A stretch of DNA of 53,959 nt from a virus. Position 1 is the first letter of the stretch, and each line of letters begins with the position of its first letter. The notes below the pieces were generated by a model. That model ran no database searches. It had not been told where the DNA came from and worked only from the letters and a program-made list of their open reading frames with translations. Position numbers and translations under genes: made by a program. Location of the stretch: positions 1 to 53,959 of the IMG/VR virus record IMGVR_UViG_3300033149_004108; one strand, 5' to 3'. Shown here one piece after another: positions 1 through 53,959 of this stretch.

Positions 1-114
1 CTGCCTGGCTTGACCGACGCATTGCAGAAGATAGACGAGCCGTTCGTGTTGGATGCGAGCGTTGGTATCGAACGAGACGGCAAGCCACTGCCGAGAATCG
101 AGCTGATGACGCTG
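1..114. repeat. Terminal direct repeat, left copy
   Basis: These 114 bases are identical to the last 114 bases of the window. The codon frame running off the right end continues in phase here, so this reads as an overlap of a circular or circularly permuted genome, not as two biological copies. Confidence 0.95.
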
Positions 115-1926
115 ACTGCGAAGACCCCGCAACTCAAGGAGGGTGATGTTGTCAAGGCCACGGTCTTCGACCTGCCGTATTGGCGCGAATCGCTGGAGGC
201 TCTTCCGTTCGGTGAACGCAGAGAGCGGCTTGAGCAGTTCTTCGAGAAGCACCTTGCGGATGACGAGCACTTCGCTATCAGCCCCCAGAAGAAGATTGAG
301 GACAAGAAAGACCTCGAACAAGCATTCAAGGAGTTCGGGGCGCAACCAGGCTCAGAAGGAGTGGTCTTGAAGGACCTGTCTGGTAAGCCGTACGGCTCTG
401 GCGGCGTATCGTGGATGGCGAAGATAAAGCATACTGCCGAATTGAAGGTAAAGGTTCTGTCTCGTTCGCGCACTGCGATTGGTACATATGTGTATCGGGC
501 GGGGCTACTTCCGAGCATCGGCGACAAGTGGCGCAACCTGACGAACTTCAGAGGCAGGCAGTATATTGACCTCGGCGAGACCTTTGCCACGAAGTTGCTC
601 GCTCAGCCAGGCGATGTATTGACGGTACAGGTGCAAGAACTCATGCCGCGCGATAATGAACTACAATGGCTTGGTGCGAAGGTGGTAGATGTAGACAAGA
701 CGCGCAAGCTGCCGTATTACTCCTCGCAGGCGATTGACATTGCGCGTCGCGCCAATATTCTGCAAGGCGGAACGCAGGATGTGCAAAAGGCCGTTGGTGA
801 TGAAGGTGGAGATGAGACGCGCGCTGGTGCTGCATTGCGGTTCTGGGAAGAATACTGGCATGAACAACCGCCGAAGTCCGGCAAGGGCCGCTGGGTGCTT
901 CAGCATCATTGGCGCGGGCTTACCGAAGAGGAAGCGAAACTCTCCGAGAAGGAACTGATGGAGACAAGGCACTCGGTACACGCCGATATGCGTTTCACCG
1001 ATGATGACGACCACCTATGGGGGTTCTCCATCTTCATCGGAAGAACCGATGACAACAGAGACCTTGACCCGCCATGCAGGGTTGTGCATCTTGGGCCTGA
1101 CGACAAACTGCAATGCCAACCCAAGTTGGAGCAGCCGACCCAATGGCTGAAGGTTGGTGGCGGTGCTGGCGAAGCGATGGAACCTGGCGAACCTGGTAGC
1201 ACTAGCAAGACATGGAGCAAGTTCTTCATCATTGACCAGGGAACCTATGAGGTTGGTGTGTGGCGCGAACATATGCAGGAGGTGTTCGTTGAGGGTCGTC
1301 ATCTGAAAGGGCGCATACTGTTCCAGTACGCTCCGGTTGGCGGCAGGCGCATCTGGCTAATGAGCAAGCCGAAGGACCAGCGGCCATATGCTGAGACCCA
1401 CGATCTTGAGGAGGTGAAGAGAGAACTTGCCAGCAAGGGACAGAAATACCTGGTCTGGTCAAAGCCAGGCGAATGCCCACAATTCATTGAAGTGAAGCGC
1501 GCTGGCTGGTTCACATTCTCGGAGAGCAGAAAGAGAGCGGAGTACTACAGCGATATTCTGAAGGCAGACGAAGAGAAGCAAATCGTCTATGGCGTTGTTC
1601 TCGAGCCGGGAAACCCAGACCAGACAGACGCGCATGGCGATTTCATTACTGCCGAGGATATCGAGCAAGCAGCGCATGACTTTATGATTCGCTGGCGTGC
1701 TCAGAAGGCAAAGATTGGACTCCAGCATCGCAAGCCAGCGAAGTGCGACATTGTCGAGAGTTTCATTGCGCCATCGGACATGCAGCTCGGCGTTGGCAAG
1801 GTGAAGAAAGGCTCCTGGGTAATGGGAGTCAAAGTATACGACCAGCGTATTTGGAAGCAGGTTCGGGACGGCGAGCTGACGGGTTTCAGCATTGGGGCTT
1901 TCGGCGACCGCATAACCGTATCGTGA
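1..1926 (+). CDS. Multidomain fusion protein, C-terminal part (ligase-like, LigD phosphoesterase-like, XkdF-type prohead protease)
   Basis: This is the continuation of the gene that starts at 52499; joined, the protein has 1090 residues. The frame is open from base 1, so the TTG at base 10 is internal. Numbering on the joined protein: the rest of a DNA-ligase-type adenylation domain includes EGVVLKD (568-574, motif IV-like) and MAKIKH (588-593, motif V-like). The expected motif III glutamate is not evident, because FVLDASVGI replaces the usual DGE. Residues about 745-920 resemble the LigD 3'-phosphoesterase fold (VLQHH, then HSVHADMRF, and a C-terminal LKGRILF). Residues 977-1090 match XkdF-type phage serine proteases: YGVVLEPG, GLQHR with the likely catalytic His, and TGFSIGAFG with the likely Ser. 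The protein ends soon after that Ser. The family's usual EVSLVDRPAN-type tail is absent here but appears in the gene at 7007. The next gene starts 9 bases downstream. The protease call is fairly firm; activity of the other domains is inference. Confidence 0.8.
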   Translation: MPGLTDALQKIDEPFVLDASVGIERDGKPLPRIELMTLTAKTPQLKEGDVVKATVFDLPYWRESLEALPFGERRERLEQFFEKHLADDEHFAISPQKKIEDKKDLEQAFKEFGAQPGSEGVVLKDLSGKPYGSGGVSWMAKIKHTAELKVKVLSRSRTAIGTYVYRAGLLPSIGDKWRNLTNFRGRQYIDLGETFATKLLAQPGDVLTVQVQELMPRDNELQWLGAKVVDVDKTRKLPYYSSQAIDIARRANILQGGTQDVQKAVGDEGGDETRAGAALRFWEEYWHEQPPKSGKGRWVLQHHWRGLTEEEAKLSEKELMETRHSVHADMRFTDDDDHLWGFSIFIGRTDDNRDLDPPCRVVHLGPDDKLQCQPKLEQPTQWLKVGGGAGEAMEPGEPGSTSKTWSKFFIIDQGTYEVGVWREHMQEVFVEGRHLKGRILFQYAPVGGRRIWLMSKPKDQRPYAETHDLEEVKRELASKGQKYLVWSKPGECPQFIEVKRAGWFTFSESRKRAEYYSDILKADEEKQIVYGVVLEPGNPDQTDAHGDFITAEDIEQAAHDFMIRWRAQKAKIGLQHRKPAKCDIVESFIAPSDMQLGVGKVKKGSWVMGVKVYDQRIWKQVRDGELTGFSIGAFGDRITVS

Positions 1927-3785: not shown

Positions 3786-4726
3786 ATGTCTGCATGGTAT
3801 GCATTGATGCACTGAGGCTTGACCATGTAACACCCGAGGTGATGCCACACCTTACCAAGCGGCTGGATAGTGGCCTGTGGTACTATGGCGTCAAGACGAA
3901 GACGCCGTGGACCCCATCCTCGGTAGCCGCTATGTTGCTTGGCAAAGACGACGCCTTCAGCGTTGGACCGAAAGCGATGATTGGCCACCCCAGCATTGCC
4001 GGTCGGTTACATGGTACGCACGACACTGGGGCCTTCATTGGCAATGCTACACTGACAACTGAACATGCCATGTGGGTATTCCGCGACTTCGACTATGTGT
4101 GGTCTTGTGCAATGGGAGTCGTGCCGGTATATCGCATGGATGGGGTATGGGCACAGTTCTTTGCCTGGCGCGAGCAACGCACGAGACCGTGGTTTGCTTA
4201 CCTGCACCTATGGGAGACCCATGAACCGTATCAAGTGCCGAATGATGAGGAGCCGCCAGCACCGGACTGTTTGAAGAGATGGCCGTACATGAAGCAGGGG
4301 CTGTTTGCCAGGTACATGGATCTTGATAATGCCGTGTTGCCAGTAGCAGAAGAGGCGAAGGAGTACCTTCGGCAACGATACAAGGTCTACTGCAAGACGA
4401 CGGATAAGAGACTTCGTGGGTACTTTGAGCAGGTGATAGATGACGACACCGTCCTTGTGGTGGTATCTGACCATGGGGACTCGCATGATGACGAAGGCAG
4501 GTGGGGCCATGGGAGCAAGCCATGTTTTGCGACTGAGGCTACATGTCGCGTCCTTTGTGGCATCATTGGGCCTGGCATACAAGCAGATAGGATTGATGCT
4601 TCTATGTTGAGTAACGCAGAGATACCCGATTTGCTGGTGAATAGCATCTTCGGCAACCGTCAGACTAATGCTGTTGACCAGGATAAGGTTGCAGAACAAC
4701 TGCGAGCACTGGGGTATCTAGGATGA
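3782..4726 (+). CDS. Sulfatase / alkaline-phosphatase-superfamily hydrolase
   Basis: 314 residues. It has the N-terminal sulfatase signature CIDALRLDHV, with the metal-binding Asp, then WTPSSVAAMLLG, which contains the candidate nucleophile Ser. VVVSDHGDSHDDEGRWGHG supplies the C-terminal metal ligands (DHG and H). There is no signal peptide or membrane segment, so it probably acts in the host cytoplasm. It could hydrolyse or transfer a sulfate or phosphate group on the sugar built by its neighbours. The superfamily includes sulfatases, phosphodiesterases and phosphoglycerol transferases, and the sequence alone does not decide between them. Presence inside a phage glycosyltransferase operon is unusual. 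Starts at ATG overlapping the previous stop. Confidence 0.75.
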   Translation: MNVCMVCIDALRLDHVTPEVMPHLTKRLDSGLWYYGVKTKTPWTPSSVAAMLLGKDDAFSVGPKAMIGHPSIAGRLHGTHDTGAFIGNATLTTEHAMWVFRDFDYVWSCAMGVVPVYRMDGVWAQFFAWREQRTRPWFAYLHLWETHEPYQVPNDEEPPAPDCLKRWPYMKQGLFARYMDLDNAVLPVAEEAKEYLRQRYKVYCKTTDKRLRGYFEQVIDDDTVLVVVSDHGDSHDDEGRWGHGSKPCFATEATCRVLCGIIGPGIQADRIDASMLSNAEIPDLLVNSIFGNRQTNAVDQDKVAEQLRALGYLG

Positions 4727-5703
4727 GTACCAACCTGACCATCTTCATGCTTGATGATTTCCTTGCTCCGTTCTTCGAGTCAATCGCTGGCTGTAATGTG
4801 ATTGTGATAGGTGGGACAAGGCAAAAACGCGCGGCTCGTCTGCGCGAGGCAGTGCGAGATGTATCTGGCAATGCCATTCTGTTGACCCTACCGACGCCGG
4901 TTACCTCACACCATATGCTATCAGAATGCTATCGTGTGTGTAAGGAAGCCGGTGTGCCAACAGTATACTGGGCTATCGAGGACCCAAACTTCTGCTCTCA
5001 ATTTCTACCACAGGCGAAGATGGTAGACTTCGTGTTCACGACAGATGCCTGCTGCATTGATGCATATCTGGAGGGCTGCAACAAGAAGGCATATTGGCTG
5101 CCGCTCGCTGCATCGCCGGAATATCACGGCCCCATTTCGCAGAAGCCGAAGTTCGATTTCGTATTCTCTGGCAATTGGTATCCCAATAAGGCGCGCATTT
5201 GGGCGACAGAAACGCTCATCATACCGATTGCCGAGAAGTACGATGTTCTCGTGTTCAGTTATCGCAAGCCGCAGAACCCAGCATTGGCGAAGAACTATGC
5301 CGGCGCGCCTTCATACCTCACGACGGCGCAACAGTACGCAAACGGGCGCATCATACTTGGGGCGAACAATCAGCGAAGTGGATTTGACGGCATCGAGAAG
5401 ACCGTAATGACGAGTATGCGCACCTTTGAGGCTTTGGCGTGTGGCAAGCCGTTTCTTACTACATCGAGCGATGCATACCAGGCACTCGGCATGACGAATG
5501 GCGTGCACTTGGTGGCTGTCAACAGCAAGCAAGAGGCGCTTGAGAAGGCGAAGGCGTTGCTGAGGAACAAGCGCATGGCGAAGAACATTGGTGACAACGG
5601 ACGCACCCTCGTACTAAGCAACCATACATACAAGCATCGGCTTGAGCGCATACTTAGAGTGGTGAGAGGAGAGAATGCAGAACAGTTCTGTTACCGATAC
5701 TGA
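4723..5703 (+). CDS. CgeB-like glycosyltransferase
   Basis: 326 residues resembling the spore-protein CgeB / DUF3880 glycosyltransferases. VPTVYWAIEDPNF and FVFTTDACCID form the N-terminal signature, FDFVFSGNWYPNK opens the second Rossmann domain, and RTFEALACGKPFLTT is the donor-binding segment before the C-terminal helix. The start overlaps the sulfatase stop (ATGA). Together with the GT genes on both sides it points to a short glycan of several sugars. The acceptor could be a virion protein, a host surface component or modified DNA. Confidence 0.75.
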   Translation: MSTNLTIFMLDDFLAPFFESIAGCNVIVIGGTRQKRAARLREAVRDVSGNAILLTLPTPVTSHHMLSECYRVCKEAGVPTVYWAIEDPNFCSQFLPQAKMVDFVFTTDACCIDAYLEGCNKKAYWLPLAASPEYHGPISQKPKFDFVFSGNWYPNKARIWATETLIIPIAEKYDVLVFSYRKPQNPALAKNYAGAPSYLTTAQQYANGRIILGANNQRSGFDGIEKTVMTSMRTFEALACGKPFLTTSSDAYQALGMTNGVHLVAVNSKQEALEKAKALLRNKRMAKNIGDNGRTLVLSNHTYKHRLERILRVVRGENAEQFCYRY

Positions 5704-5893
5704 GAGGTACATACGCCTTCAATGCCGACACAATCCAGAGCGGAAGGGTTGTGTGCATATTGCAAACGAAGATGGCGGCCCGCTTTGTGGCTACACACCG
5801 CGCAGCAGGCGCGTTGAGTGGGTAACGGTTGACGAGAGACCACTACAGCATGAGCTGTGTCATAACTGCTGGCTGGAGGCGTCTCGGAAATGA
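5675..5893 (+). CDS. Small cysteine-rich protein
   Basis: 72 residues with five cysteines (17, 26, 38, 62, 65). The last two form CHNC, compatible with a small zinc site. It begins inside the end of the preceding glycosyltransferase after a GAGGAGAGA ribosome site, and its stop overlaps the next gene. No family recognised. It may be an accessory to the enzymes on either side. Confidence 0.65.
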   Translation: MQNSSVTDTERYIRLQCRHNPERKGCVHIANEDGGPLCGYTPRSRRVEWVTVDERPLQHELCHNCWLEASRK

Positions 5894-6615
5894 GAATTGT
5901 GGTCGGCGGCATCATTCATTACAGAGCGACGATACAACAGCATCTGCGGTCTGTACTTGCACTCGATAATGGAAAACATGAGTTGAAACACGCGTGGGTT
6001 GTTGACAACTCTCCAGAGGTGGTGCGACTGTTGGAGGGCGACGCCGATGCTATTGTTGACGCAAGGATACCAGGCGATAGATATAAGCGCGAGCAGTTGC
6101 CCGCAAGCAGGCGGAGGCCAATCTATGCCAGGCTTGCTGCGTTGAGGAACATGCTTGCCGAAGTTGCTATCAGCCTTGGCGCTGACGCGCTGCTTTCGAT
6201 TGACTCCGATATTGTGGTGCCAAAGCATCTTCTGGTGAAACTTGCCGATGTTGATGTTGACTGGGTTGCGGCACTGGTGCGCAACGGTGCGGAGCCTACC
6301 ATCTACAATGTGTTCAAACTCGTCAACAATCATGTGAAGCGGTTTGCCCCCATTGTATACGAGGGTGGCTTTCAGAGGCCCACGAGTGCTGTTTGGTATG
6401 ACCCGCAAGACGAGGGAAAGAAGCCGTGTCTTGCTGCGGGTGCGGTATGCATGTATTCACGCAGACTGCTGGAATCTGCGCGGTGGAGCACGGACGGAAG
6501 GGGCTGCCAAGAAGATGTTGGCTTCGCCCGCAATGCTCACGCAGAGGGGTTCAGCGCGTGGTATGTTCCTGTAATATGTAGACACCTTACGGTTGGTGGT
6601 GCTGATGGGAACTGA
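5890..6615 (+). CDS. GT-A-like glycosyltransferase
   Basis: 241 residues. The pattern fits a short GT-A enzyme: an N-terminal VGGIIHYRA strand, WVVDNSPE in the nucleotide-binding region, LLSIDSDIVVP carrying the DxD metal motif, and a C-terminal GCQEDVGFARNAHAEGF with the likely catalytic acid, followed by a conserved-looking His (RHLT). ATG overlaps the preceding stop. It is the fourth glycosyltransferase of the cassette. Donor and acceptor unknown. Confidence 0.7.
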   Translation: MRIVVGGIIHYRATIQQHLRSVLALDNGKHELKHAWVVDNSPEVVRLLEGDADAIVDARIPGDRYKREQLPASRRRPIYARLAALRNMLAEVAISLGADALLSIDSDIVVPKHLLVKLADVDVDWVAALVRNGAEPTIYNVFKLVNNHVKRFAPIVYEGGFQRPTSAVWYDPQDEGKKPCLAAGAVCMYSRRLLESARWSTDGRGCQEDVGFARNAHAEGFSAWYVPVICRHLTVGGADGN

Positions 6616-7006: not shown

Positions 7007-7996
7007 ATGGTGTGGTTTGCTAGGCAGGCGATTGAGAAGGCACGGCAGTTGCGGCGGCTTGCCGTGTACGAAGTATCGCTTGTGGGCAAGCCGGCCAATC
7101 GGCGGCGCTTCCTGCTGTTCAAGTCAGAAGGAGGTAATAGCGATATGGACAGGTTGACAGAAGATGATGCCCTGGACCTGGAGGAGCGTCTGAACACGCC
7201 TGCCAGCAAGGAAGAGGATGTAATGTCTGCGCTTGAGAAAGCGGAGGGACTCTCCGACAAGGAGAAGAACGCCGTGCGCGGCGCAATGCGTCTGCTGGGG
7301 AGTCTCAAGGACAACAAGGTGATTGCAAAGGTGTTGCAGTCCCTTGCAAGCATTGCTGGCTATGGCTATGCTGCTCCAACGAAGGGCACTGGCGACAAGG
7401 ACGAGGAAGAGGAAGACAAGGATAAGAACACGGACACTCCCGTGAACAAGAGCGATAAGTTTGCGATTCCAGAGGAGATTGCCAGCCTCTCCAAGTCCGC
7501 GAAGCCCGATGAGTACGAGGCGATGCTGAAGGCAGCGCGCGAGAATCCTGGTGTGGTGGCCCTGCTTCTCCCCATTGTGAAGGCCCGCGATATGGAGATC
7601 GAGCGTCAGGCCCAAGTTCTCAAGGAGATGAAGGAGCGCGAGGAGATGGCGCAGATTGAGAAGATGGTTGACGAGGTCAATCTGCCTGGCACCTCGCGCG
7701 AGGACCAGGTCAAGTTCCTGAAGGCGTTGACTCCAGAGCAGCGCGATGCTTGGCTCAATCAGATGAAGGCTGTTGCCGCCGCTGTGGACGTTGCGAATCT
7801 GACTTCGGAGATTGGCACGTCCCGCAAGCCCGATTCTGACAAGGACTCTCCGATGGCGCAACTGGCCAAGATGGTTGACGAAGCCATCGAGAAGTCAGAG
7901 GGCAAACTGACGAAGGGCGAAGCCTGGGATCGCGTGTTGAGCACGCCCGAGGGCCAGAAACTCTATGAGACCTACGAAGCGAAGGTCGGGAGGTAA
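7007..7996 (+). CDS. Scaffold-like protein carrying the displaced C-terminal signature of a prohead protease
   Basis: 329 residues. Residues about 19-44 contain VYEVSLVGKPANRRRFLLFK, which closely matches the segment that normally ends XkdF-type prohead proteases (EVSLVDRPAN-like). The rest is charged and helical: a very acidic KDEEEEDKDK stretch near residue 130 and a predicted coiled coil around residues 195-225. That composition and the place just before decoration and capsid genes fit an internal scaffold. Weak SD; start at ATG 7007, with GTG codons close behind. The most natural reading is that one protease-scaffold gene was split, leaving the protease core at the end of the fusion gene and the remainder here. 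Scaffold role is inferred. Confidence 0.65.
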   Translation: MVWFARQAIEKARQLRRLAVYEVSLVGKPANRRRFLLFKSEGGNSDMDRLTEDDALDLEERLNTPASKEEDVMSALEKAEGLSDKEKNAVRGAMRLLGSLKDNKVIAKVLQSLASIAGYGYAAPTKGTGDKDEEEEDKDKNTDTPVNKSDKFAIPEEIASLSKSAKPDEYEAMLKAARENPGVVALLLPIVKARDMEIERQAQVLKEMKEREEMAQIEKMVDEVNLPGTSREDQVKFLKALTPEQRDAWLNQMKAVAAAVDVANLTSEIGTSRKPDSDKDSPMAQLAKMVDEAIEKSEGKLTKGEAWDRVLSTPEGQKLYETYEAKVGR

Positions 7997-8002
7997 GGTG
8001 TT

Positions 8003-8428
8003 ATGGGTCTGGAACTAGGCGTGTGCTATCACACATTCGTTGCCGGTGAGGACCTAACCGATGCACAGTACCACGTGGTGAAGATTAGCGGCTTCGATTC
8101 GGCGGCTAACGCGCCGAAGGTGGCCCTATGCGGCGACGGCGAGAAGATGTGCGGCATCCTTCAGAATGACCCCGATGACGGAGAGGCTGCGCTGGTCATG
8201 CGCGTTGGCAAGTCTCCTGCGGTCATTGCTGCGGCCATTGACGCCGGTACTTCGTGGGCGTCCGATTCCAACGGGCATATCAAGGCAGTTGACGAACTTG
8301 AGTGGGTCGGTGGAATGGTACACGAAGCCGGCGTTACTTCGCCCACGACTACTGGCTCGGAACTGACCACGGTTGATGTTGAAGCACTCAACCCGTGGAA
8401 GACCCCGTCTGGCTTCACTGACGAGTAA
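8003..8428 (+). CDS. Capsid decoration protein, DUF2190-like
   Basis: 141 residues. It is a small beta-rich protein with the DUF2190 style of sequence: an early strand pattern, GDGEKMCGILQNDP, ALVMRVGKSPAV and GTSWASDSNGHIK. This family lies directly before major capsid genes in many siphoviruses and is thought to decorate or stabilise the shell. GGGAGG precedes the ATG. No membrane segment or signal peptide. Confidence 0.7.
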   Translation: MGLELGVCYHTFVAGEDLTDAQYHVVKISGFDSAANAPKVALCGDGEKMCGILQNDPDDGEAALVMRVGKSPAVIAAAIDAGTSWASDSNGHIKAVDELEWVGGMVHEAGVTSPTTTGSELTTVDVEALNPWKTPSGFTDE

Positions 8429-8464
8429 GCGGGGCCAGGAGAGGACATAAGGAGGTAGCAACAT

Positions 8465-9472
8465 ATGCCACTACCGACATATAGCGATGTGCATGTGAAT
8501 GTGCCGCTGACCAACATCGCTGAATCGTGGCTGGTCCGCGAAGACCAGTACATCGCAACCCGCGTCTTCCCCGTGGTGCCGGTTCAGCAAGCCAGCGGTA
8601 AGGTTGTGCGGTACTGCCGCAAGGACTTCTTCAACGCCGAGATTGTGCGGCCGCGTGCACCTGGTGCGAAGAGCCAGGGCACTGGCTTCCACGTGGACAC
8701 CGATACCACCTATAACTGCATGAACTATGCGCATAGGTGGGAGTTGCCCGATAGGATTCGCCAGGCTGCTACCAGCCCAATCAATCTTGAGCGGACTGGC
8801 GTCGGCATCATCATGCAGCGCCTGAAACTCAAGATGGAGATTCTGTTCGCGCAGGCTGCATTCCAAACCGGCATATGGGGGTCGCAGGTAACTGTTGGTC
8901 TGCCGTGGAACAACGCGAATGCCACTCCGATTACCGATGTTCGGGATGCCAAGTTGCGCATGGCGTTGGCGACCGGCTTCGAGCCGAATACCTTGGTGGT
9001 GAATACGCAGGTCTTCGAGTATCTGCGTACGCACCCGACAATTACGGCGGTATACCGGAACAACGCCGAGCCTCAGCCGAACCTCTCTGCTTCGCAGGTG
9101 GCGGCGGTGTTGGACATCGAGCGGTTGCTCGTTGGCCGCGCCGTCTATGACGCCGGGCCGATGCAGGGGCAGTGGGAAGGAAACTTCGTGTTCGGCAACC
9201 ACGCGTTGCTATGCTACACCACGTCCGCCCCGTCCTTGCAGGAGCCAAGCGCGGGCTATGTTCTCGGATATGTTGGCGGTTCTTCATCTGGTACTGTCGT
9301 GAAGATTTCGCAGTACCGTGGTGAAGAAGACACCAACAAGGACATCTTCGTCGGCGAGTTTGACATTGATACGAAGGTCGTTGAGCCTGACCTTGGCGTG
9401 TTCTTCCCGAATGTCATCAGCGGCGACGATGTTCTGACCGAGGTAGTCATGGATGTTGACATCTGCGAGTAG
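8465..9472 (+). CDS. Major capsid protein
   Basis: 335 residues of a HK97-like or E-like capsid type. It follows the decoration gene, has a near-ideal AAGGAGG ribosome site, and contains segments common to this class: VREDQYIATRVFPVVPV, HRWELPDRIRQA and LVVNTQVFEYLRTHP. No N-terminal delta domain is obvious, consistent with a separate scaffold gene upstream. A strong terminator-like hairpin follows, as is usual for an abundantly made capsid protein. Confidence 0.85.
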   Translation: MPLPTYSDVHVNVPLTNIAESWLVREDQYIATRVFPVVPVQQASGKVVRYCRKDFFNAEIVRPRAPGAKSQGTGFHVDTDTTYNCMNYAHRWELPDRIRQAATSPINLERTGVGIIMQRLKLKMEILFAQAAFQTGIWGSQVTVGLPWNNANATPITDVRDAKLRMALATGFEPNTLVVNTQVFEYLRTHPTITAVYRNNAEPQPNLSASQVAAVLDIERLLVGRAVYDAGPMQGQWEGNFVFGNHALLCYTTSAPSLQEPSAGYVLGYVGGSSSGTVVKISQYRGEEDTNKDIFVGEFDIDTKVVEPDLGVFFPNVISGDDVLTEVVMDVDICE

Positions 9473-9493
9473 GGGGTGATACGCTAGCACTAC

Positions 9494-9549
9494 AAGGGGG
9501 GCTGGTAATGGTGCCACCGCTGGTCTGAGCGCCCCCGGCCCCCCTTCTT
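9494..9549 (+). terminator. Terminator after the major capsid gene
   Basis: AAGGGGGGC (9494-9502) is complementary to GCCCCCCTT (9538-9546), followed by a T-rich CTTC. The 35-base loop contains smaller complementary segments. It lies in the 114-base gap between the capsid gene and the next CDS and may partly reduce read-through. Confidence 0.6.
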
Positions 9550-9586
9550 CAACACAACTCGAAAAACATAGGTGAGGAGAGACACG

Positions 9587-10012
9587 ATGCCATGGTGTGT
9601 TGTGTGTCGCGACAAGATTTACCTAATGGTGGACGGGGTTCAACAGAAGTTCGAGAGGGGCGAACTCGTGCGTCTTGCACCACGCGATCCCTTGATTGTC
9701 GCAGAGGATGTTGAACCTCTCTCTGATGCCGACCTTGAGGAATGCGTTACTTGTGTGTGCGGTAGGCGGTTCTATGGCACCTCAGTAGCGCATTTCGCAT
9801 TTGACGGGCACAAGCCCGCAGGTTCTCAGGCCGCATTAGAGCAAGACGAGGAGCAGGCAGAGGAGATAGAGCTGGAGCAAGAGGAGGAGCAAGCGGAACA
9901 GGTAGCACTAGAGCAAAAGGAACAGGTAGTCGAAGGTGAGGCCCAGGCCGAAGCAAGCGAAGAGACCGATGCAATGCCAAAGCGACGCGGTAGGAAGAAG
10001 GTCGCGGCATGA
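9587..10012 (+). CDS. Zinc-finger protein with acidic Glu/Gln tail
   Basis: 141 residues. The first 70 carry CVVC and CVCG pairs, compatible with a zinc site. Residues about 85-125 are an imperfect repeat rich in Glu and Gln (units like LEQEEEQAE), and the end is basic (KRRGRKK). ATG 9587 follows GAGGAGAG and is preferred to the in-frame GTG at 9572. The stop overlaps the next start (ATGA). Its place between capsid and connector genes suggests a head-associated role. No family recognised. Confidence 0.6.
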   Translation: MPWCVVCRDKIYLMVDGVQQKFERGELVRLAPRDPLIVAEDVEPLSDADLEECVTCVCGRRFYGTSVAHFAFDGHKPAGSQAALEQDEEQAEEIELEQEEEQAEQVALEQKEQVVEGEAQAEASEETDAMPKRRGRKKVAA

Positions 10013-28737: not shown

Positions 28738-29018
28738 GTGGACCGCTCCTTTTCCAGTTCTCGCAGGGTGCGCTTCGCCCTTCTGATTGCTCGGCGCATT
28801 TTCCAAAGCCAGATGCGATGGCGGATTCTCTCGGCCCAGTTTCGGGGGTAGGTCACTACCACTTTCTCCACCGGCCCATACTCCCCCCATTGGACCACAC
28901 ACTGTATCCAGCCCTGAGAAGCATAGCGATGGAAGGCCGTTTCTAGCATCTGCTCAACTTTCCCCGCCCGCAAAGCACTCATTTCCGCTATGATTCTGTT
29001 TATCTCTTCGGATATCAT
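28734..29018 (-). CDS. Hypothetical helical protein
   Basis: 94 residues from ATG 29018 (ATGA overlap with the upstream gene). Helical, basic in the second half (RRAIRRAKRTLREL). Not recognised. Confidence 0.6.
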   Translation of the reverse strand: MISEEINRIIAEMSALRAGKVEQMLETAFHRYASQGWIQCVVQWGEYGPVEKVVVTYPRNWAERIRHRIWLWKMRRAIRRAKRTLRELEKERST

Positions 29019-29779
29019 GGCAACCTCCACGCCAAGTCCCCAGGCGTCGGTTCAAAGTGAATCACTTTCGGTTCCCCTTCTTCTCCCGACACCTGCTTTA
29101 CATAGCAAGGGACGCCCGCTTCGCGACACTGCTCTTGTATGGAGCGAAACCATGCGCACTTGGCGCGTCGAGCAGCTGGCCCGCTCTCGCAACCCGCAAT
29201 CACCTGGTCAAGTGAGTGGCAGTAGTCGGTGATATCTACCGGCTCCAGCAACGGTTCCAGGCTAACTCCCCGGTGCGCGGCTGGCGTCTCCAACAGCAAC
29301 GGCACCCTCTCGTCGACCTCTGCCTGCGTCGAGCAGGAGACGAAGAGCCAGACGTTTTTTGGGGGCCATTTGCCTGACGCTTTCGCCGCGGGTGAGTATC
29401 GGCTTCGGTATAGCATGTACTGCTTCATACGCTCGGCGCGCTTGGTGAACACCAGGAATGTGTGTTTGTCGGCCTCCATCATGGTGGACACAACCTTATC
29501 AATGAACTCGAAAGGGACGCGTGCATGAAACAAATCACCCATCGAGCACACAAACACCACCCGCGGCTTCCGCCACTGCAACGGCTCCTCAAGGCGTTCG
29601 GGGTGGTAGACAATCTCGGAGAAGGGGACGCCTGGCCCGCCGTGAATGTACGGCAGGTTCCTCCGCGCCAGCCGCGCGGCCCAGCACCTCTCCCTACACG
29701 CTTCATTGTGCTGGTCAGGCGGACAGCCCGTAACGGGATTGAAGGTGTGCGTGCAGAACGGTATGTCGGATTTGCTCAT
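29015..29779 (-). CDS. DUF5131 (phage Gp37/Gp68) family protein
   Basis: 254 residues. FNPVTGC...C...CWA near the start is the family's cysteine cluster, then VFVCSMGDLFHA, FLVFTKRAERM, NVWLFVSCSTQAEVD and ITDYCHSLDQVIAGCESGPAAR. These are the DUF5131 landmarks in order. The family is distantly like radical-SAM enzymes of the photolyase type. The spacing of the N-terminal cysteines (C-x8-C-x3-C) would suit an Fe-S cluster. The phage role is unknown; DNA or nucleotide modification is often suggested by context. Confidence 0.75.
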   Translation of the reverse strand: MSKSDIPFCTHTFNPVTGCPPDQHNEACRERCWAARLARRNLPYIHGGPGVPFSEIVYHPERLEEPLQWRKPRVVFVCSMGDLFHARVPFEFIDKVVSTMMEADKHTFLVFTKRAERMKQYMLYRSRYSPAAKASGKWPPKNVWLFVSCSTQAEVDERVPLLLETPAAHRGVSLEPLLEPVDITDYCHSLDQVIAGCESGPAARRAKCAWFRSIQEQCREAGVPCYVKQVSGEEGEPKVIHFEPTPGDLAWRLP

Positions 29780-29798
29780 CTTGCCCTTCTCCCTTTGA

Positions 29799-30002
29799 TT
29801 ACTCTGTCTCATCGCCTATGGCACAGACCGGCTTCCCGCAATGGGGGCATAGCCGTGGCCTGAACTTCGGGTCGTCCGTCCACTGGTCGCAGGCTTCCGT
29901 ATCCGGCTGTTCATAACTATCGTGCAGGCGGCAGTAGAAGAGACCTTCTTCTTCAGCAGGCCACAGATGCGAACAGGTGCCGCAGGTTTTCTTGCCAGCC
30001 AT
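29799..30002 (-). CDS. Zinc-ribbon protein
   Basis: 67 residues, Cys at two pairs: CGTCSH with CRLHDS and CPHCGKPVC near the end. Two zinc sites are likely. ATG 30002 follows AGGAGG. Confidence 0.65.
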   Translation of the reverse strand: MAGKKTCGTCSHLWPAEEEGLFYCRLHDSYEQPDTEACDQWTDDPKFRPRLCPHCGKPVCAIGDETE

Positions 30003-34235: not shown

Positions 34236-34470
34236 TGCCGCGTTCCTTTGTGTCGCGCAGGGCAAGACAGTCTTCTACCGAGTGAAGAGCGTCCGCCTCT
34301 GCCTCTGTTATCTGCCACTCCCTGTTGCCAGCAGGCGACCTGTGCATGAGGAACAACATGCCCTTTGTCCTGCGTTGCACAATCCAGATGCCTTCGTGTT
34401 CGCTGCCAACGAAGGCGGCGATTGGCTCTCCGTTATTCCCAGGGTTCGGGTTCTGCGTTGCTGTCGTCAT
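34228..34470 (-). CDS. Hypothetical protein
   Basis: 80 residues from ATG 34470, which lies inside the end of the helicase gene with GGAGG upstream. A beta-like middle (GIWIVQRRTKGMLFLMHR) is followed by a short helix. Not recognised. Confidence 0.55.
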   Translation of the reverse strand: MTTATQNPNPGNNGEPIAAFVGSEHEGIWIVQRRTKGMLFLMHRSPAGNREWQITEAEADALHSVEDCLALRDTKERGNE

Positions 34471-36112
34471 CGGATGCACCTCCTTCCTCTTGTTCGGGTT
34501 CTGGCTCATCCTTTGGTAGCAAGTAGTATTCGGCGTAACGACCTGCCTGCCGAGACGCTAGCACCTTCTGCTTGCGGAGCATGGCCAACGCCTCGTCAAA
34601 GGTCCGCACCGAACAAGGGATGTCTGCCTGTACTGCACCAAGGAGGTCCCTTCTGGACATTGGCGAAGTGGACAAGAGGGTGTAGATGACTTCCTTCACC
34701 TGGTCGGTAACCGCTTCGATTGACTGCGAGACGGTTCCGCCATAGACGAAGGTGGTCCCTTCGCCATTCGGCCCCGATTCTTCGAGTATCTGGAAACGAG
34801 GCTCATATTGCTTCGGGTGTCGCGCCTTGCGGTGTTCGAGTACGCGCGTTCCCTGGCCCGTCTTTATCATCAGCATCATACTGTCCGCCAGGTGAGCAAT
34901 CGCGCCGCTTCCAGACACACCGCGGTTGCCCAATTGTTCTCCAGGTTGCAGTTTCGGCGGGTGGGCAATCACGAGAACATGGCAGAAGTGTTGCTCGGCG
35001 AATAGGCGAAGGCGGTTGAAGATAGGCGCTACCACCTCTCGCTTATTCAAGTCGGCAGTACCACTCAGGCTTGCCATCGAGTCCAGAATCACGAGACGCG
35101 CCTTCGTTTGTCGCACTGGCCCAATCAGGATATTGACCGCCGACAGCAGAGGTCTGTTGTGTAGCACCTTCGCCAGGGTCTCGCCGAAGATGAACTCGAT
35201 GCGCCTCTTTGGGGGAGGAGCATCATCGGAATCGCTCTGTTCCTGTTCTTCGCCTTCAATCCCGAACACTTCTATTGCCTGCTTGTGCCTCATATGCAGA
35301 ACATAGTCTGATGATACTCCTGACCCCTTGTCGAGGTCCTCAACACGCTCAGTGTTCCCTGCCCGGCCGGTTTCGGCATCCACGAAGATGACGCCGCCCT
35401 CCTGTTCGAACTTGAACTTGCCGAGCCACTTGTGGCCATGCACGTATGCATGGGCTAGCGACAGCGCAATCAGGCTCTTGCCGCACCCCTCGGGGCCAAA
35501 GAGCACTGATACCCCAGGTATGGGCAGAAGCGGATACATGAGATATTTCACCTTGTTTCCCTCCAGGATTAGGTCATCAACATTCACCAGTTCGAGTTGT
35601 TCACCGCAACCCTGGTCGAGGAGTTCGCGCAGATATGACACGCGGTCTGGGTCGGACTTCAGTAGTACCGAACACAGGGCGTCCCGCAGGCGTCTACGGT
35701 CGGCAGCGACCTTCACGGCACGAGCGTATTCGCCGACAAGCGCCGCTGTCGAACAGTCATTCGTCAACTCCACGAGGTAGTCAATGCCGCCGCAGGCTTG
35801 CAATGCGTCGGGGGCTAGGTCTGACTGGAGCACGATGTAGTCCACCGGCCTCCCCTCGTTGTAGATGCGCAGGATATGGGAGTACAGATATCGGTGGGCG
35901 GGTTCGCCGAAGTCCTCTGGCATCAGCCATGATGCGACGGAGGTAATGGCGGCCCGCTCTGTCAAACACGCCCCTAGGACGGCCCGCTCTGCGTTTATGT
36001 CAGCCAGTTGGCGGCTCGCCTTGATTGTGGCTATGATGGCCTCGGCGTCGTTGCCGAGCAAGGCTTCGGGATCGAACTCTGGCCGTTCCTTTTGTCGCTT
36101 TTTTCGAGCCAT
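34433..36112 (-). CDS. DnaB-N / RecA-fold replicative helicase-like ATPase
   Basis: 559 residues. Residues about 38-145 are a DnaB N-terminal helical domain (NAERAVLGACL, HRYLYSHILRIYNEGRPVDY, GGIDYLVEL). It is followed by a RecA-fold ATPase of the RepA/AAA_25 type with Walker A GPEGCGKS (residues 206-213), IFVDAETGR and Walker B RLVILDSMASLSG, then LVIAHPPK. The C-terminal 90 residues look like a winged helix (VIYTLLSTSPMSRRDLLGAV) with an acidic end. Presumably unwinds DNA at the origin. The iteron array lies immediately upstream. ATG 36112 or 36115. Confidence 0.75.
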   Translation of the reverse strand: MARKKRQKERPEFDPEALLGNDAEAIIATIKASRQLADINAERAVLGACLTERAAITSVASWLMPEDFGEPAHRYLYSHILRIYNEGRPVDYIVLQSDLAPDALQACGGIDYLVELTNDCSTAALVGEYARAVKVAADRRRLRDALCSVLLKSDPDRVSYLRELLDQGCGEQLELVNVDDLILEGNKVKYLMYPLLPIPGVSVLFGPEGCGKSLIALSLAHAYVHGHKWLGKFKFEQEGGVIFVDAETGRAGNTERVEDLDKGSGVSSDYVLHMRHKQAIEVFGIEGEEQEQSDSDDAPPPKRRIEFIFGETLAKVLHNRPLLSAVNILIGPVRQTKARLVILDSMASLSGTADLNKREVVAPIFNRLRLFAEQHFCHVLVIAHPPKLQPGEQLGNRGVSGSGAIAHLADSMMLMIKTGQGTRVLEHRKARHPKQYEPRFQILEESGPNGEGTTFVYGGTVSQSIEAVTDQVKEVIYTLLSTSPMSRRDLLGAVQADIPCSVRTFDEALAMLRKQKVLASRQAGRYAEYYLLPKDEPEPEQEEGGASDDDSNAEPEPWE

Positions 36113-36119
36113 CACCTCA

Positions 36120-49245: not shown

Positions 49246-49252
49246 GCGTGTG

Positions 49253-50749
49253 ATGGGCAAGGGCCAGATACCGGAAGCGGTACGGATATACCATCAAGCG
49301 AAGGAAGCGGGGCAGTTTCTCATTGCAGGGACGGTGCCGTACACGCCGCATCCTGGGCAGAGGGTGTTCCACGAATCGGCGGCGAGGATACGGGTACTGG
49401 CGTGTGGGGCGCGCTGGGGGAAAGACCGCTCGTGTGTGAACGAAGCGATACGGGTGGCGGCGGCGGCGATGCAGTTGCCTGGGAGGGAGTTGCTGGTTCC
49501 GAAGGTACACGTCTGGTTTGTTGCGCCGAACTACCCGTTGGCGAAGCAGTTGTGGCGGGAGTTGAAAGCGTTTACGCCGCCGGAGGTGATATTGGGCGCG
49601 CCGAACGAGACGGAGCGCACGATTCACTGGCGTGGGGATGTGCTGATGGAGGTGAAATCGGCGGATGATCCTCGTTCCTTGCTGGCGGTGGGGCTGGACC
49701 TGGTGGTGGTGATTGAGGCGGCGTTGTTGCGGCCGGAGGCGTGGGAGATGGCATTGTATCCGCGGCTGACTTCTCCTGGGAGGTTGGGTTTGGCGATACT
49801 GAATGGGACGCCGAAGGGGAGGAACTGGTACTGGCGATTGTTCCACCGTGGGCAGGACCCGAACGACCCAGAGGTTGAATCGTGGAACTTTCCGACGCGC
49901 GCGATACCGACGCCCGATGGTGGGTGGGAGGACCATCCGTATGGAAACCCGCATATATCGCTTGACGAGATAGAGAATGCGCGGAAGGAGATGCCCGACC
50001 GGTGGTTCCGGCAGGAGTTTCTGGCGGAGTTTCTGACGGAGGGTGGTGCGGTATTTCGCAATGTGCGCCAGAGGGTATCGTTGCCGCCGCCGAATCCGAG
50101 GCGACCGATTGTGGTGGGGGTTGACCTGGCGAAGACCGAGGACTACACAGTATTCGTTGCGATGGACGCTGATGGCCGCATGGTGGCGATGGAGCGGATG
50201 CAAAGGATACCATACGACATACAAGCGGAACGCCTGTGCGAGTTTGTGAAGCGAGTTGGCGCGCCCAGGGTGTATATCGAGAAGAACGGGCCTGGGGAAA
50301 CATTTATTGACATGGCGGAAGGTGTGTTTGGTCGTAATGCTGTGAATTGTAGCCTTATCGGACAAGCAACATCGGCACAATCGAAGCGTCAGATGATTGG
50401 GTCACTGATTGTGGGTTTCGAGCAAGGCGACAGCGGTCTTACGATATTAGACGACCCGGTGTTGTTGAACGAGTTGGAGGCATTCTCTGCCGAGCAATTG
50501 CCGTCTGGCAATGAACGATATTCTGCGCCGCAGGGATTCCACGATGACTGTGTGATGGCGTTGGCGTTTGCGTGGTCGGCGGTGCGCGACAGCGGTCGTT
50601 TCGTGCAACGCGTTGGAACGGTGCCGAAGCGTGGTGCGAACGTGTTTGTGGGATTGAAGAAACTCCCTTATACTGGTGGCACGGGCCGTGGGCCTGGTGC
50701 ATATCGGTTCCGGCCATTGCGACGGAGGTTTGCGAACCATGCCAGATAA
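49253..50749 (+). CDS. Terminase large subunit
   Basis: 498 residues from ATG 49253 (GTG 49250 is directly before it). ATPase: ARWGKDR as a Walker A variant near residues 53-59, and LVVVIEAALL near 150-159 as Walker B. The usual Asp before the catalytic Glu is replaced by Ile (an Asp does occur five residues before it). Nuclease (RNase-H-like): VVGVDLAKTEDYTVF with the first Asp (about residue 291), VYIEKNG, and GFHDDCVMALAFA with the closing Asp pair. Order of motifs fits the family. Overlaps the portal start by 11 bases. Confidence 0.85.
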   Translation: MGKGQIPEAVRIYHQAKEAGQFLIAGTVPYTPHPGQRVFHESAARIRVLACGARWGKDRSCVNEAIRVAAAAMQLPGRELLVPKVHVWFVAPNYPLAKQLWRELKAFTPPEVILGAPNETERTIHWRGDVLMEVKSADDPRSLLAVGLDLVVVIEAALLRPEAWEMALYPRLTSPGRLGLAILNGTPKGRNWYWRLFHRGQDPNDPEVESWNFPTRAIPTPDGGWEDHPYGNPHISLDEIENARKEMPDRWFRQEFLAEFLTEGGAVFRNVRQRVSLPPPNPRRPIVVGVDLAKTEDYTVFVAMDADGRMVAMERMQRIPYDIQAERLCEFVKRVGAPRVYIEKNGPGETFIDMAEGVFGRNAVNCSLIGQATSAQSKRQMIGSLIVGFEQGDSGLTILDDPVLLNELEAFSAEQLPSGNERYSAPQGFHDDCVMALAFAWSAVRDSGRFVQRVGTVPKRGANVFVGLKKLPYTGGTGRGPGAYRFRPLRRRFANHAR

Positions 50750-52199
50750 CGCAAAGCGAACGCCGAAGAAAAGGAAGAAGGCGACAACCGCTACTGGTGG
50801 CTTTGCGAAACCGCGCGTGTTCAACTTCAGCAAGGCGTTGAACGCAGAAGCGCAACGCGTAGACACATTTGCCGGCCAGATTGGGACCACTGGTCTGCGC
50901 AGGATGGGGCCGTATGTCGTCGAGGAGTATCTGACCGAACTGCGCGGGAAGCAGGGGCGCGCCCGCTATCAAGAGATGTACAACACGGATGTTGTGCGCC
51001 GCGCCTTGCGAGCGATTCTGCTGCCGATGTTGCAAGCGTCGTGGCGGGTTGAAGGCGGTGCGGGTGCGGATGCTGAGCGGGCGCGTGAGTTTGTCGCACA
51101 GTGTATGGACGACATGTCGCATACCTGGCGCGAGTGGCTACAGGATGCGTTGATTGGTACTGCGGTGTATGGCGCGTCATGGTATCAGACGATATACAAG
51201 CGTCGGTTGGGGCCGAATCAGCGCGATGCAAAGAAGCGGAGCAAGTTCAACGATGGCTTGTGGGGGTGGCGGAAGTTCAGCCCTCGCTATCAGAACACAT
51301 GGGAAGGTTGGGAATGGGATGACGACGGGGATATGAAGGCGCTGATTCAGAGCGACCCGTATTCCGGCAGAGGCAAAGTAGTAATCCCGCTGGATATTTC
51401 ATTGCACTTCACATTGGAGGGGCGGCTTGGCAACCCAGAGGGGGAAAGTTTGTTGCGCGCAGCGTACCAGCCGTGGTACGGCTATCGCCACGCCGAGATA
51501 TGGACCGGCATCCTCATCGAGCGCATGGGCGGTATCCCTGAGTTTGCGGTAGAGGACGCGAATCTGCCGTTGTTCTCGGATGATATTCCAGAGATGCAGA
51601 ATCTGCGCTCGTACCTTGAGGATGCGGGCACTGCGTTCCGATTGGACGAACAGACCTGCATCATCACGCCGCCTGGCATCAAGTTCAACTTGCACACGCC
51701 TGCGGTGAGGGTGAACGACCTCATTCGCTACATGCAGTTCTGCGCCTGGAGAATCATGGGGTGTTTGCTGGCACAGTTTCTCGAACTCGGCCAGACGCCG
51801 TATGGCTCTTACGCGAAGACCGAGAGTGAAAAGGACTTCTTCCTGCAATCGTGCCAAGCGATGTTGCAGGCGATTGCTGATGTGCTGAACAGGTATGAGT
51901 TGCCGAGACTCTTCAAGTTGAACGCCGGTTCGTTTACTCAGCTCGAAGAGTTGCCGCAGTTAGTGCCCACCGATACGCGAGCACCTGACTTGACGACGGT
52001 TGCTGAGCCGTTGGCGAGACTCGTGCGCGCTGGTGTGATGGAGCCGTATCCTGCGTTGCAGGCGTATCTGCGTCAGATTGGTCATCTGCCCGAACCTGAT
52101 GAAGAGGAAGAGGATGGACCAACGACGCGGATTGAAGAGGAACCAAACGGTGAGGAGGAGGAAGCACAACATGCGAACGAGGTTGCAAACAGAACTTGA
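50739..52199 (+). CDS. Portal protein (DUF935-like)
   Basis: 486 residues from ATG 50739 (a longer frame adds 21 residues that overlap terminase). Features of DUF935-type portals: MYNTDVVRRALRAILLPMLQ, WREWLQDALIGTAVYGASWYQTIYK, ARLLRAAYQPWYGYRHAEIW-like helices and an acidic C-terminus. It sits between the terminase and the head genes. Twelve copies would form the DNA channel of the head vertex. Confidence 0.8.
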   Translation: MPDNAKRTPKKRKKATTATGGFAKPRVFNFSKALNAEAQRVDTFAGQIGTTGLRRMGPYVVEEYLTELRGKQGRARYQEMYNTDVVRRALRAILLPMLQASWRVEGGAGADAERAREFVAQCMDDMSHTWREWLQDALIGTAVYGASWYQTIYKRRLGPNQRDAKKRSKFNDGLWGWRKFSPRYQNTWEGWEWDDDGDMKALIQSDPYSGRGKVVIPLDISLHFTLEGRLGNPEGESLLRAAYQPWYGYRHAEIWTGILIERMGGIPEFAVEDANLPLFSDDIPEMQNLRSYLEDAGTAFRLDEQTCIITPPGIKFNLHTPAVRVNDLIRYMQFCAWRIMGCLLAQFLELGQTPYGSYAKTESEKDFFLQSCQAMLQAIADVLNRYELPRLFKLNAGSFTQLEELPQLVPTDTRAPDLTTVAEPLARLVRAGVMEPYPALQAYLRQIGHLPEPDEEEEDGPTTRIEEEPNGEEEEAQHANEVANRT

Positions 52200-52498: not shown

Positions 52499-53959
52499 AT
52501 GGCGAGAAGCCAACGATTCCTTGAAGCCTGGTATCAGCGTGTCAGTCCCTGGGTAAAGCGGTATCTGCCAGGCATTGCAGACAGGTTGTTGCGCCAAGCG
52601 AGGGGCGAAGCCGGCGGGCGTTCATCGCCATTGAAGGTTGATGCGGTTGAGAAGATGGCGTTGGGCGTTTTGAACGAGAAGAATGTGCGCAGCCTATCTC
52701 GCAACGAAGTCTTGAATCTTCATCGCCGTTGTCATCAGTTGGTAGCGCGCGCCAAAACATCGGCCGATATTGACACTGCCGAACTTGCCCGCGCCCATTC
52801 GCTACTCGTTTCCGAGATGAAGCGGCGCGGTATGTTCCACAGGTCGCCGTTGCAGGCGTGCATGTTGAAGTCGGAAGTAGTATCAGATGATGTTCCAGAG
52901 GAACTGGTAGTCATTCCCGACTTCGTTTCTGTGGTGGGTTCATCTGTCGCCGACGCAGAGAAGGCGAACGATATAGATGTGCTGTTTCGCGCTACGCGTG
53001 GAGCGAAGGGCTTCACGATACCTGCCAAAGGCATTGAGGTGCTCGCACGCAAGGCTATTGCGCCGCGCAAAGATAAGGAACTCCACTATATCGACGAACC
53101 GACTGGGCCGCATGCTGATTACATCCCGTTGTACGACCTCGTGTTGCGGCGCAGTAAGAGGCCCAAGCAAGTCGTGAAGGGGGATGGCGAGCACGACAAG
53201 GTTGACCTCGGTTGCGGAGATAACAAGCCCGCCGGCTACTTTGGCATTGACAAGCAGCCAGGTGATGCTGTTGATCTTGTTGCTGACCTGGAGTTTGGGA
53301 TTCCATTGCCCAGTGAATCTGCTGAAGTAGTGCGCGCTCATCACATACTGGAGCATCTACCCGACAAGGAATCAATCATGGCGGAGATTTGGCGCGTGCT
53401 CAAGCCAGGAGGGATTGCCGATATTGTCGTTCCGTCATCCGAGGGGATTGGTGCTGATGCAGACCCGACGCACAAGAGCAGATGGAACTCTGCATCATTC
53501 GCGTTCTGGACTGAAGAGAGTCTGCTTGCAGACCGCCCTCGTTTTGAGGAGGTGTCTGTTGAGTCAAAGTTGCAGCCGAACGGCAGCATATGGGTGTTTG
53601 CGAAGTTGCGCAAACCTGTTGAGAAGGCGGTAGCACCACTCAAGACATTTACTCCGCCGAAGCCGAGTATGGCGGCAATCACCGAAGTATTCTCGGTTGA
53701 TGAAATCTGGGATGCGTGGGTGAAGAAGCATCTTGACGGCGGCGTTGTCGCTGAACCGAAGTACAATGGCTTCCGCGCGATCCTCACTGGCGATGGCAAG
53801 GGTAGCGTCTCCATCTGGTTCGAGGACGCGAAACGGGAACACGAACTGCCTGGCTTGACCGACGCATTGCAGAAGATAGACGAGCCGTTCGTGTTGGATG
53901 CGAGCGTTGGTATCGAACGAGACGGCAAGCCACTGCCGAGAATCGAGCTGATGACGCTG
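52499..53959 (+). CDS. Multidomain fusion protein, N-terminal part (nucleotidyltransferase-, methyltransferase- and ligase-like)
   Basis: Starts at ATG 52499, 7 bases after the preceding stop, with AAGAAGG upstream. 449 codons reach the repeat, and the frame continues exactly at base 1. Residues 1-130 are helical. VVGSSVADAEKANDIDVLF (145-163) is the G-S...D-x-D signature of polymerase-beta-type nucleotidyltransferases, and GPHADYIPLYDLVL completes a related pattern. VDLGCGDNKPAGYFGID (235-251), HHILEHLPD and IWRVLKPGG form a Class I SAM methyltransferase. Residues 416-429 (VAEPKYNGFRAIL) match ligase motif I, K-x-N-G, with candidate lysine 421 for adenylate. The remaining domains are in the entry at 1. 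Four enzyme-like domains ahead of a head protease is highly unusual. Confidence 0.8.
   Translation, partial: MARSQRFLEAWYQRVSPWVKRYLPGIADRLLRQARGEAGGRSSPLKVDAVEKMALGVLNEKNVRSLSRNEVLNLHRRCHQLVARAKTSADIDTAELARAHSLLVSEMKRRGMFHRSPLQACMLKSEVVSDDVPEELVVIPDFVSVVGSSVADAEKANDIDVLFRATRGAKGFTIPAKGIEVLARKAIAPRKDKELHYIDEPTGPHADYIPLYDLVLRRSKRPKQVVKGDGEHDKVDLGCGDNKPAGYFGIDKQPGDAVDLVADLEFGIPLPSESAEVVRAHHILEHLPDKESIMAEIWRVLKPGGIADIVVPSSEGIGADADPTHKSRWNSASFAFWTEESLLADRPRFEEVSVESKLQPNGSIWVFAKLRKPVEKAVAPLKTFTPPKPSMAAITEVFSVDEIWDAWVKKHLDGGVVAEPKYNGFRAILTGDGKGSVSIWFEDAKREHELPGLTDALQKIDEPFVLDASVGIERDGKPLPRIELMTL
53846..53959. repeat. Terminal direct repeat, right copy
   Basis: Identical to bases 1-114. Removing one copy gives a circle of 53,845 bases with no broken gene. 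Confidence 0.95.

Follow-up and report, generated by a model that had tools for sequence, protein, structure and literature searches.

Proheads incorporate their protease together with the scaffold. What else might travel with it? The protease of SPN3US, gp245, acts on many packaged head proteins, whose propeptides frequently exit the head (PMC10052503). Proteases of the XkdF type are well known, jumbo phages included (PMC7824862). The protein gp44 of 80alpha, encoded between portal and capsid, is ejected, binds the genome ends and has been proposed to aid circularization (PMC7290940). Virions of the mycobacteriophage Corndog contain the protease; they were found to lack the enzymes whose genes lie between those of portal and protease (PMC4351075). 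Polyvalent proteins (Iyer et al. 2017, PMC5512222) are many-domain phage proteins, encoded with portal or MuF genes and thought to be packaged, from which an embedded peptidase may release parts.

How does the present locus compare? The window, by which we mean the whole stretch of DNA that was analysed, is a virus contig of 53,959 bases. It encodes a protein of 1090 residues (the polyprotein; table 1) that comprises, from N- to C-terminus, a helical domain, a nucleotidyltransferase (NTase) motif, a methyltransferase, an ATP-dependent ligase, a LigD-type 3'-phosphoesterase (PE) and an XkdF prohead protease. It resembles the polyvalent proteins in that several enzyme domains, unrelated to one another, are combined in a single phage protein whose gene accompanies portal/MuF genes. 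We read it as an XkdF-type prohead protease with an N-terminal DNA end-processing cargo, which would cut itself in the prohead and whose enzymes would act on the ends of the viral DNA, likeliest after ejection; we put the probability of this reading at about one half.

The gene crosses the ends of the contig, as an assembly artefact might. The two ends are an exactly matching direct repeat of 114 bp and, since 114 is a multiple of 3, the frame that opens with the ATG at 52499 continues past the join to a stop at 1926. The stretch 52499-53959 is only the first half of the gene. An earlier note on this sequence had read such a single frame, and two contigs from other samples, L007 and L008, bear it out. 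Both encode the domain order of the window protein in one unbroken frame with no join needed and, at ~46% identity over >1000 residues, are homologous to it on either side of the join and across it. Because the same order is encoded contiguously there, the join is not an artefact; these relatives and the exact in-frame overlap already refute that explanation, to which we give practically no weight. The first 52 residues of the window protein, which precede the start of L007, are homologous to the starts of L011, L013 and L017, and the ATG at 52499 is therefore supported as the start.

Table 1. Head-module genes, parts of the polyprotein and candidate cleavage motifs. Positions are those of the window unless a contig is named.
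Feature	Position	Strand	Basis
Terminase large subunit	49250..50749	+	phrog_2 4e-35
Portal protein	50676..52199	+	phrog_113 5e-51, Portal_Mu 3e-26
Polyprotein gene, 5' part (residues 1-487)	52499..53959	+	open frame
Polyprotein gene, 3' part (residues 488-1090 and stop), over the circular join	115..1926	+	open frame
Terminal direct repeat, inside ligase domain	1..114	+	identical to 53846-53959
Terminal repeat (114 bp), second copy	53846..53959	+	identical to 1-114
Conserved helical N-terminal domain core (residues 53-118)	52655..52852	+	in 27 relatives; helices pLDDT 80-93
Candidate motif MLKS, NTD/NTase linker	52862..52873	+	
NTase-like segment (residues 134-220): GS, D-x-D, third Asp	52898..53158	+	motif conservation
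Candidate motif VVKG, NTase/methyltransferase linker	53171..53182	+	
Class I SAM methyltransferase (residues 228-372)	53180..53614	+	Pfam Methyltransf_11, 8e-9
Candidate motif VEKA, methyltransferase/ligase linker	53618..53629	+	
ATP-dependent ligase adenylation domain, first part (residues 388-487; KYNG lysine)	53660..53959	+	PF01068
Ligase remainder and conserved segment after it, probably OB domain (residues 488-702; SEGVVLKD, K-x-K)	115..759	+	motifs, Pfam
Candidate motif VQKA, ligase/PE linker	781..792	+	
LigD 3'-phosphoesterase-fold domain (residues 718-947)	805..1494	+	family profile, AlphaFold/Foldseek
XkdF (Peptidase_S78_2) prohead protease domain (residues 967-1087)	1552..1914	+	PF14550; conserved His, Ser
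Candidate motif ILKA, ahead of protease	1555..1566	+	
Scaffold-like head protein	7007..7996	+	10 h-x-K-[ASG] sites (2.0 expected); syntenic in relatives
Head scaffolding/decoration-like protein (phrog_673)	8003..8428	+	7e-13
Major capsid protein	8465..9472	+	phrog_1005 2e-59
Isolate proteins with motif enrichment	L004:2953-4934, L005:4578-5660, L006:3623-4534		

Of the segments that the earlier note had named from their motifs, three are recognized by Pfam in the window protein: the methyltransferase (Methyltransf_11, residues 260-306), the ligase (PF01068, residues 408-592, 5e-12) and XkdF (PF14550, E 6e-30, 104 bits against a cut-off of 24). In the family alignment the XkdF His is kept in 35/35 sequences and the Ser in 32/32; by analogy these would be the catalytic residues. 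The segment behind the ligase adenylation domain is, from its position only, probably an OB domain. The helical N-terminus matched the Pyr_excise profile weakly (E 0.003 in the window, 0.03-0.07 elsewhere) and over part of the profile, and that candidate was rejected. A single-sequence Pfam scan of the window protein detected neither the NTase nor the PE.

Are these two segments real? A profile of 12 PE segments matches five PDB sequences, all of them LigD phosphoesterases (best 2e-4). In an AlphaFold model of residues 690-1090, made with 17 sequences, the PE has a pLDDT of about 90. With this model the top seven Foldseek matches are all LigD PE (3p43, E 6e-7), and VIA-align superposes it on 3p43 with a Z of 13.9 (123 aa, 2.2 Å), unrelated folds staying below Z 4. 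Since the family profile matches and both structural comparisons agree on LigD PE, we conclude that the PE is real and that, as modelled, it has the eight-stranded barrel fold of that domain. The comparison of structures does not carry the claimed NTase as far. Its motifs are well conserved (G-S in 30/30, D-x-D in 30/30, the third Asp in 28/30) in a family that reaches down to 25-30% identity, and that much of the claim stands. The fold was not confirmed: NTP_transf_2 matches only 4/13 members, weakly; AlphaFold gives a pLDDT of about 50 over the segment; Foldseek returned nothing below E 0.1 for that pLDDT ~50 model; and the sequence profile found no PDB match. The NTase is accordingly named here at the level of motifs.

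How widely is this protein distributed? A search with the PE region found the same kind of protein on about 45 distinct viral contigs, among them L007 and L008 with the domain order of the window. Only the PE region retrieved relatives; a close-relative scan with the whole protein or with a two-row ligase-PE alignment returned nothing. In the genome collection the protein occurs on one MAG contig, which carries the same protein as L017. Phage isolates gave no tblastn match to the N-terminal 231 aa or to the PE, and match only via XkdF, the methyltransferase or, in ANMV-1, the ligase-PE core. Matches listed on plasmids proved to be ordinary ligases or LigD and were rejected as members.

The order of domains in the family is constant: N-terminal domain (NTD), NTase, an optional slot, ligase, a second optional cassette, PE and XkdF. 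The first slot may hold a methyltransferase, a Dam-type D12 methylase (2e-19), a metallo-beta-lactamase fold (MBL) or a Cys-rich segment; the second, between ligase and PE, may hold a domain of the uracil-DNA glycosylase (UDG) superfamily. Placed on a tree of 31 ligase-PE rows, the seven cassette labels require 12 changes, the least possible number being 6. Some members are reduced or divided. L053 has a DHH/DHHA1 unit ahead of the helical domain, followed by PE and XkdF, and is without the ligase; L024 also lacks the ligase. The XkdF domain is absent from L016 and from L019, where the next gene encodes an S78-type prohead protease; in L069 the next gene encodes XkdF; and L054 has a gene of its own for the NTase and lacks a fused XkdF. 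Since the enzyme block persists without a fused XkdF in L016, L019 and ANMV-1, the fusion is not obligatory. This family with its exchangeable cassettes, and the XkdF-less core in ANMV-1, are additions to what the earlier note contained.

Several members have features of their own. In L041 (4528-10065) a frame of 1846 residues combines a Dam-type D12 methylase and a class I methyltransferase with UDG, ligase, PE and XkdF. L013 and L041 share an extra conserved segment (REVASESGR.IWR.NDGWGERYYLVE) inserted between UDG and PE, and L024 has a similar one. The family gene of L047 (6383-10044) is broken by a frame change in the UDG domain, either a sequencing error or real. Beside the XkdF-less member of L016, a protein of 810 aa (7207-9639) has a major capsid protein as its C-terminal part (Phage_capsid_4, 2e-33); the long part upstream of its capsid domain may be a protease.

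Do the domains retain the residues of working enzymes? In the published LigD PE site His42, His48 and Asp50 bind the metal while Arg52, His84 and Tyr88 bind phosphate (PMC8656161). A His and an H-x-D-x-R motif, the counterparts of His42, His48, Asp50 and Arg52, are invariant in the family (36/36), and the H-x-D-x-R aligns with the LigD PE chains of the PDB. At the anion site the family alignments contain no conserved His or Tyr corresponding to His84 and Tyr88; an invariant Trp is found there instead, its position being read from the alignments. The window ligase retains the motif I lysine (K in EPKYNG), as do 31/32 members, together with motifs IV and V. Its motif III (D-G-E) reads D-A-S, the Glu being replaced by Ser; close relatives have D-C-D/N, while D/E-G-E is intact in the group of L009, L013 and L016. 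In L043 motif III is degenerate and the adenylation lysine is missing. The UDG-like cassettes carry GASPG, compared with GE(G/A)PG in family 4 UDG.

With the motif III Glu and two PE residues altered, activity of the window enzymes is uncertain; judged from their residues the ligase and PE may be weak or inactive. The claim that working enzymes are delivered was in this respect too strong, as not all segments are clearly active (two of the six PE residues have no counterpart). One might go further and propose that the domains are no longer enzymes at all and have become DNA-binding or scaffolding parts that aid assembly of the prohead. The lost Glu in the window, the ligase of L043 without its lysine and the two active-site residues missing from the PE of every member would fit such a role. 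We think it unlikely: the ligase lysine, the NTase carboxylates and the PE histidine and H-x-D-x-R are too regularly conserved in the family, and the repeated gain and loss of cassettes suits enzymes better than inert scaffolding.

Where does the gene stand? Almost every locus runs from terminase and portal, usually through MuF, to the polyprotein, then to the scaffold-like protein, in some a scaffold, and the major capsid protein (for the window, see table 1). Two families of prohead protease, XkdF and S78, were searched for in the record; XkdF is present once and S78 was not found, and for this reason the polyprotein is most likely the prohead protease of this phage. Between the protease and the scaffold-like gene, inside the head module, the window has glycosyltransferase-like genes and a sulfatase-like gene (1936-6615; PF00884, 2e-11). 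Corndog likewise has glycosyltransferase and O-methyltransferase genes in its head module, there between portal and protease. Elsewhere in the window, on the minus strand, a DUF5131 protein (29015-29812, 6e-62) lies among early genes, and a DnaB helicase is encoded at 34433-36115. Among the window genes scanned there was no match to a DNA polymerase or to a second ligase.

If the polyprotein is a protease, where might it cut? A motif, h-x-K-[A/S/G], was first noticed by eye in the linkers and then judged on the scaffold-like proteins, which the protease would be expected to cut. From composition one expects 36.5 occurrences of [VILMF]-x-K-[ASG] in 18 scaffold-like relatives; 126 are found. Control proteins show no enrichment (portal 32 vs 25 expected, capsid 7 vs 12, terminase 13 vs 27), and MuF lies in between (34 vs 20). 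When the residue pairs of the scaffold-like proteins are counted without bias, VxK (106 vs 38) and IxK (76 vs 26) rank among the strongest signals, beside a GYGY-type repeat. The motif is also enriched in three unrelated isolates with stand-alone XkdF proteases: 12 vs 1.8 expected in the Lactococcus protease including its C-terminal part, and 11 vs 1.9 and 8 vs 2.1 in the proteins that follow the protease in Pseudomonas and Rhizobium phages. These counts suggest that h-x-K-[ASG] may be a general XkdF cleavage motif.

In the window protein the motif occurs in 5/5 inter-domain linkers and at two further sites, inside domains. When residues were shuffled within the linkers, a mean of 0.56 linkers contained it and five were reached in 0/5000 trials. 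Across the family, the linker before XkdF being left out, it is present in 39/77 linkers of members with XkdF and in 0/7 of those without (one-sided P 0.01, on rows that are related and linkers that are partly homologous). It is not universal, since L007, which has the architecture of the window, has it in 0/4 linkers. We regard h-x-K-[ASG] as a predicted cleavage motif. The self-cleavage that the earlier note had proposed gains support from its presence in every linker, its enrichment in the scaffold-like neighbours and the place of the gene in the protease slot.

How, then, might such a protein work? The chain would enter the prohead via its protease and its helical N-terminus. The protease would cut both the scaffold-like neighbour and its own linkers at h-x-K-[A/S/G] sites, and this would release NTase, methyltransferase, ligase and PE units within the head. 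Once freed, the units would repair 3' ends, seal nicks or assist in closing the genome, and would most likely do so after being ejected with the DNA into a new host. We favour this timing because cuts at the linker sites would leave the domains whole. Taken together, the ligase, the PE-fold end processor, the NTase and the UDG that is often present may be read as an end-healing or excision-repair kit, and the arrangement suggests a repair kit that the virus incorporates into its head and that cuts itself apart. Against this we count the empty linkers of L007, the members without XkdF, the altered ligase and PE residues, the absence of the Corndog enzymes from virions and the usual departure of propeptides from the head.

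Might the enzymes instead work earlier, in the cell that makes the virions? There, ahead of packaging or in the course of it, they could mend nicks and ends of concatemeric DNA at the portal, with the protease clearing the prohead later. The gene adjoins those of portal and terminase, the cassettes (UDG, MBL, DHH, ligase, PE) are of a repair type, and propeptides cut by a prohead protease normally exit the head. Fusion to a protein that is assembled into the prohead would, however, be an odd route to a cytosolic enzyme, and the linker motifs would release intact domains rather than shred them, only two of the seven sites in the window protein lying inside domains. We consider this timing rather unlikely, though by no means negligible.

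Nor need the target be viral DNA. The cargo could be directed at the host, in counter-defence or in modification of host proteins or nucleotides, as proposed for polyvalent proteins, which are delivered by phages and combine NTases, methylases and peptidases (PMC5512222). The Dam-type methylase of L041 could guard against restriction. To our knowledge, however, the two most widespread catalytic units of the family, the ligase and the LigD-type PE, serve in DNA end joining wherever they are well known, and a host target seems to us very unlikely.

Returning to a self-cut cargo that acts on the viral DNA ends, we may ask how general it is. Possibly, though we say so tentatively and with less than even confidence, there is a widespread class of tailed viruses in which the prohead protease is a carrier. 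Between a helical N-terminus, which is fixed, and the protease at the C-terminus would lie interchangeable ligase, LigD-type PE, NTase, UDG, Dam, MBL and DHH units, to be freed in the head at h-x-K-[ASG], and the virion would deliver a base-excision and end-joining kit that heals and closes the incoming genome independently of the host. If the proposal is correct, some phages carry end-healing and ligation enzymes in the virion, packaged via fusion to the protease of head maturation. This would be a direct, testable route for the repair and closure of injected genomes ahead of gene expression, and it would offer a natural way of loading phage heads with enzymes. The predicted XkdF cleavage motif can be tested on isolated Lactococcus, Rhizobium and Pseudomonas phages.

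What is already familiar in this protein, and what is not? Bacterial LigD, of NHEJ, likewise has an ATP-dependent ligase and a 3'-phosphoesterase in one chain, and the PE matches it closely. The window protein differs from LigD in its virion-gene context, its extra domains (NTase and methyltransferase, UDG in relatives, and the protease) and its altered PE active site; an AEP polymerase domain is absent from it by Pfam scan, and Ku was sought in the record and not found. The archaeal virus ANMV-1 (KP703175) encodes a protein of 866 aa annotated 'ATP-dependent DNA ligase' (AJP62006) that has the same NTase, ligase and PE core directly after the portal, its NTase being detected by the family profile. 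Unlike the window protein it has neither methyltransferase nor XkdF. The ANMV-1 gene annotated 'MutT-like phage hydrolase' (L003:1913-3193) is the portal protein (PF06381, 3e-22), and the ligase is followed by a Cys-rich repeat protein of 1166 aa (L003:5868-9368) whose C-terminus (DERTCDYC...HEHCRC) resembles the MuF C-terminal signature.

The stand-alone XkdF proteases of Lactococcus, Rhizobium and Pseudomonas phages (PF14550, phrog_3017/1530) have the same domain in the same position between portal and scaffold or capsid; unlike the window protein they have no enzyme domains ahead of the protease. Several of those in GenBank (L004:2953-4002, H3/H9), and phrog_1530, are labelled 'DNA methyltransferase', probably a copied misannotation. 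We rejected these labels as evidence of fusions; the Lactococcus protein is without a methyltransferase motif. The ejection proteins 80alpha gp44 and SPP1 gp7 (PMC7290940) are, like the polyprotein, encoded between portal and capsid. They occupy the MuF slot, whereas here a separate MuF gene usually precedes the polyprotein, and gp44 is a DNA-binding protein without enzyme domains. In polyvalent proteins the peptidase is of the zincin/MPTase type, whereas here it is the XkdF protease of the head, and their description (PMC5512222) makes no mention of combinations of DNA ligase, LigD PE and UDG. In the part of the literature covered we found no description of XkdF fused to ligase, PE or UDG. 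Polyvalent proteins and XkdF proteases are thus known; what appears to be new, in the literature covered here, is a putative head-delivered, multi-enzyme protein whose carrier is the maturation protease itself.
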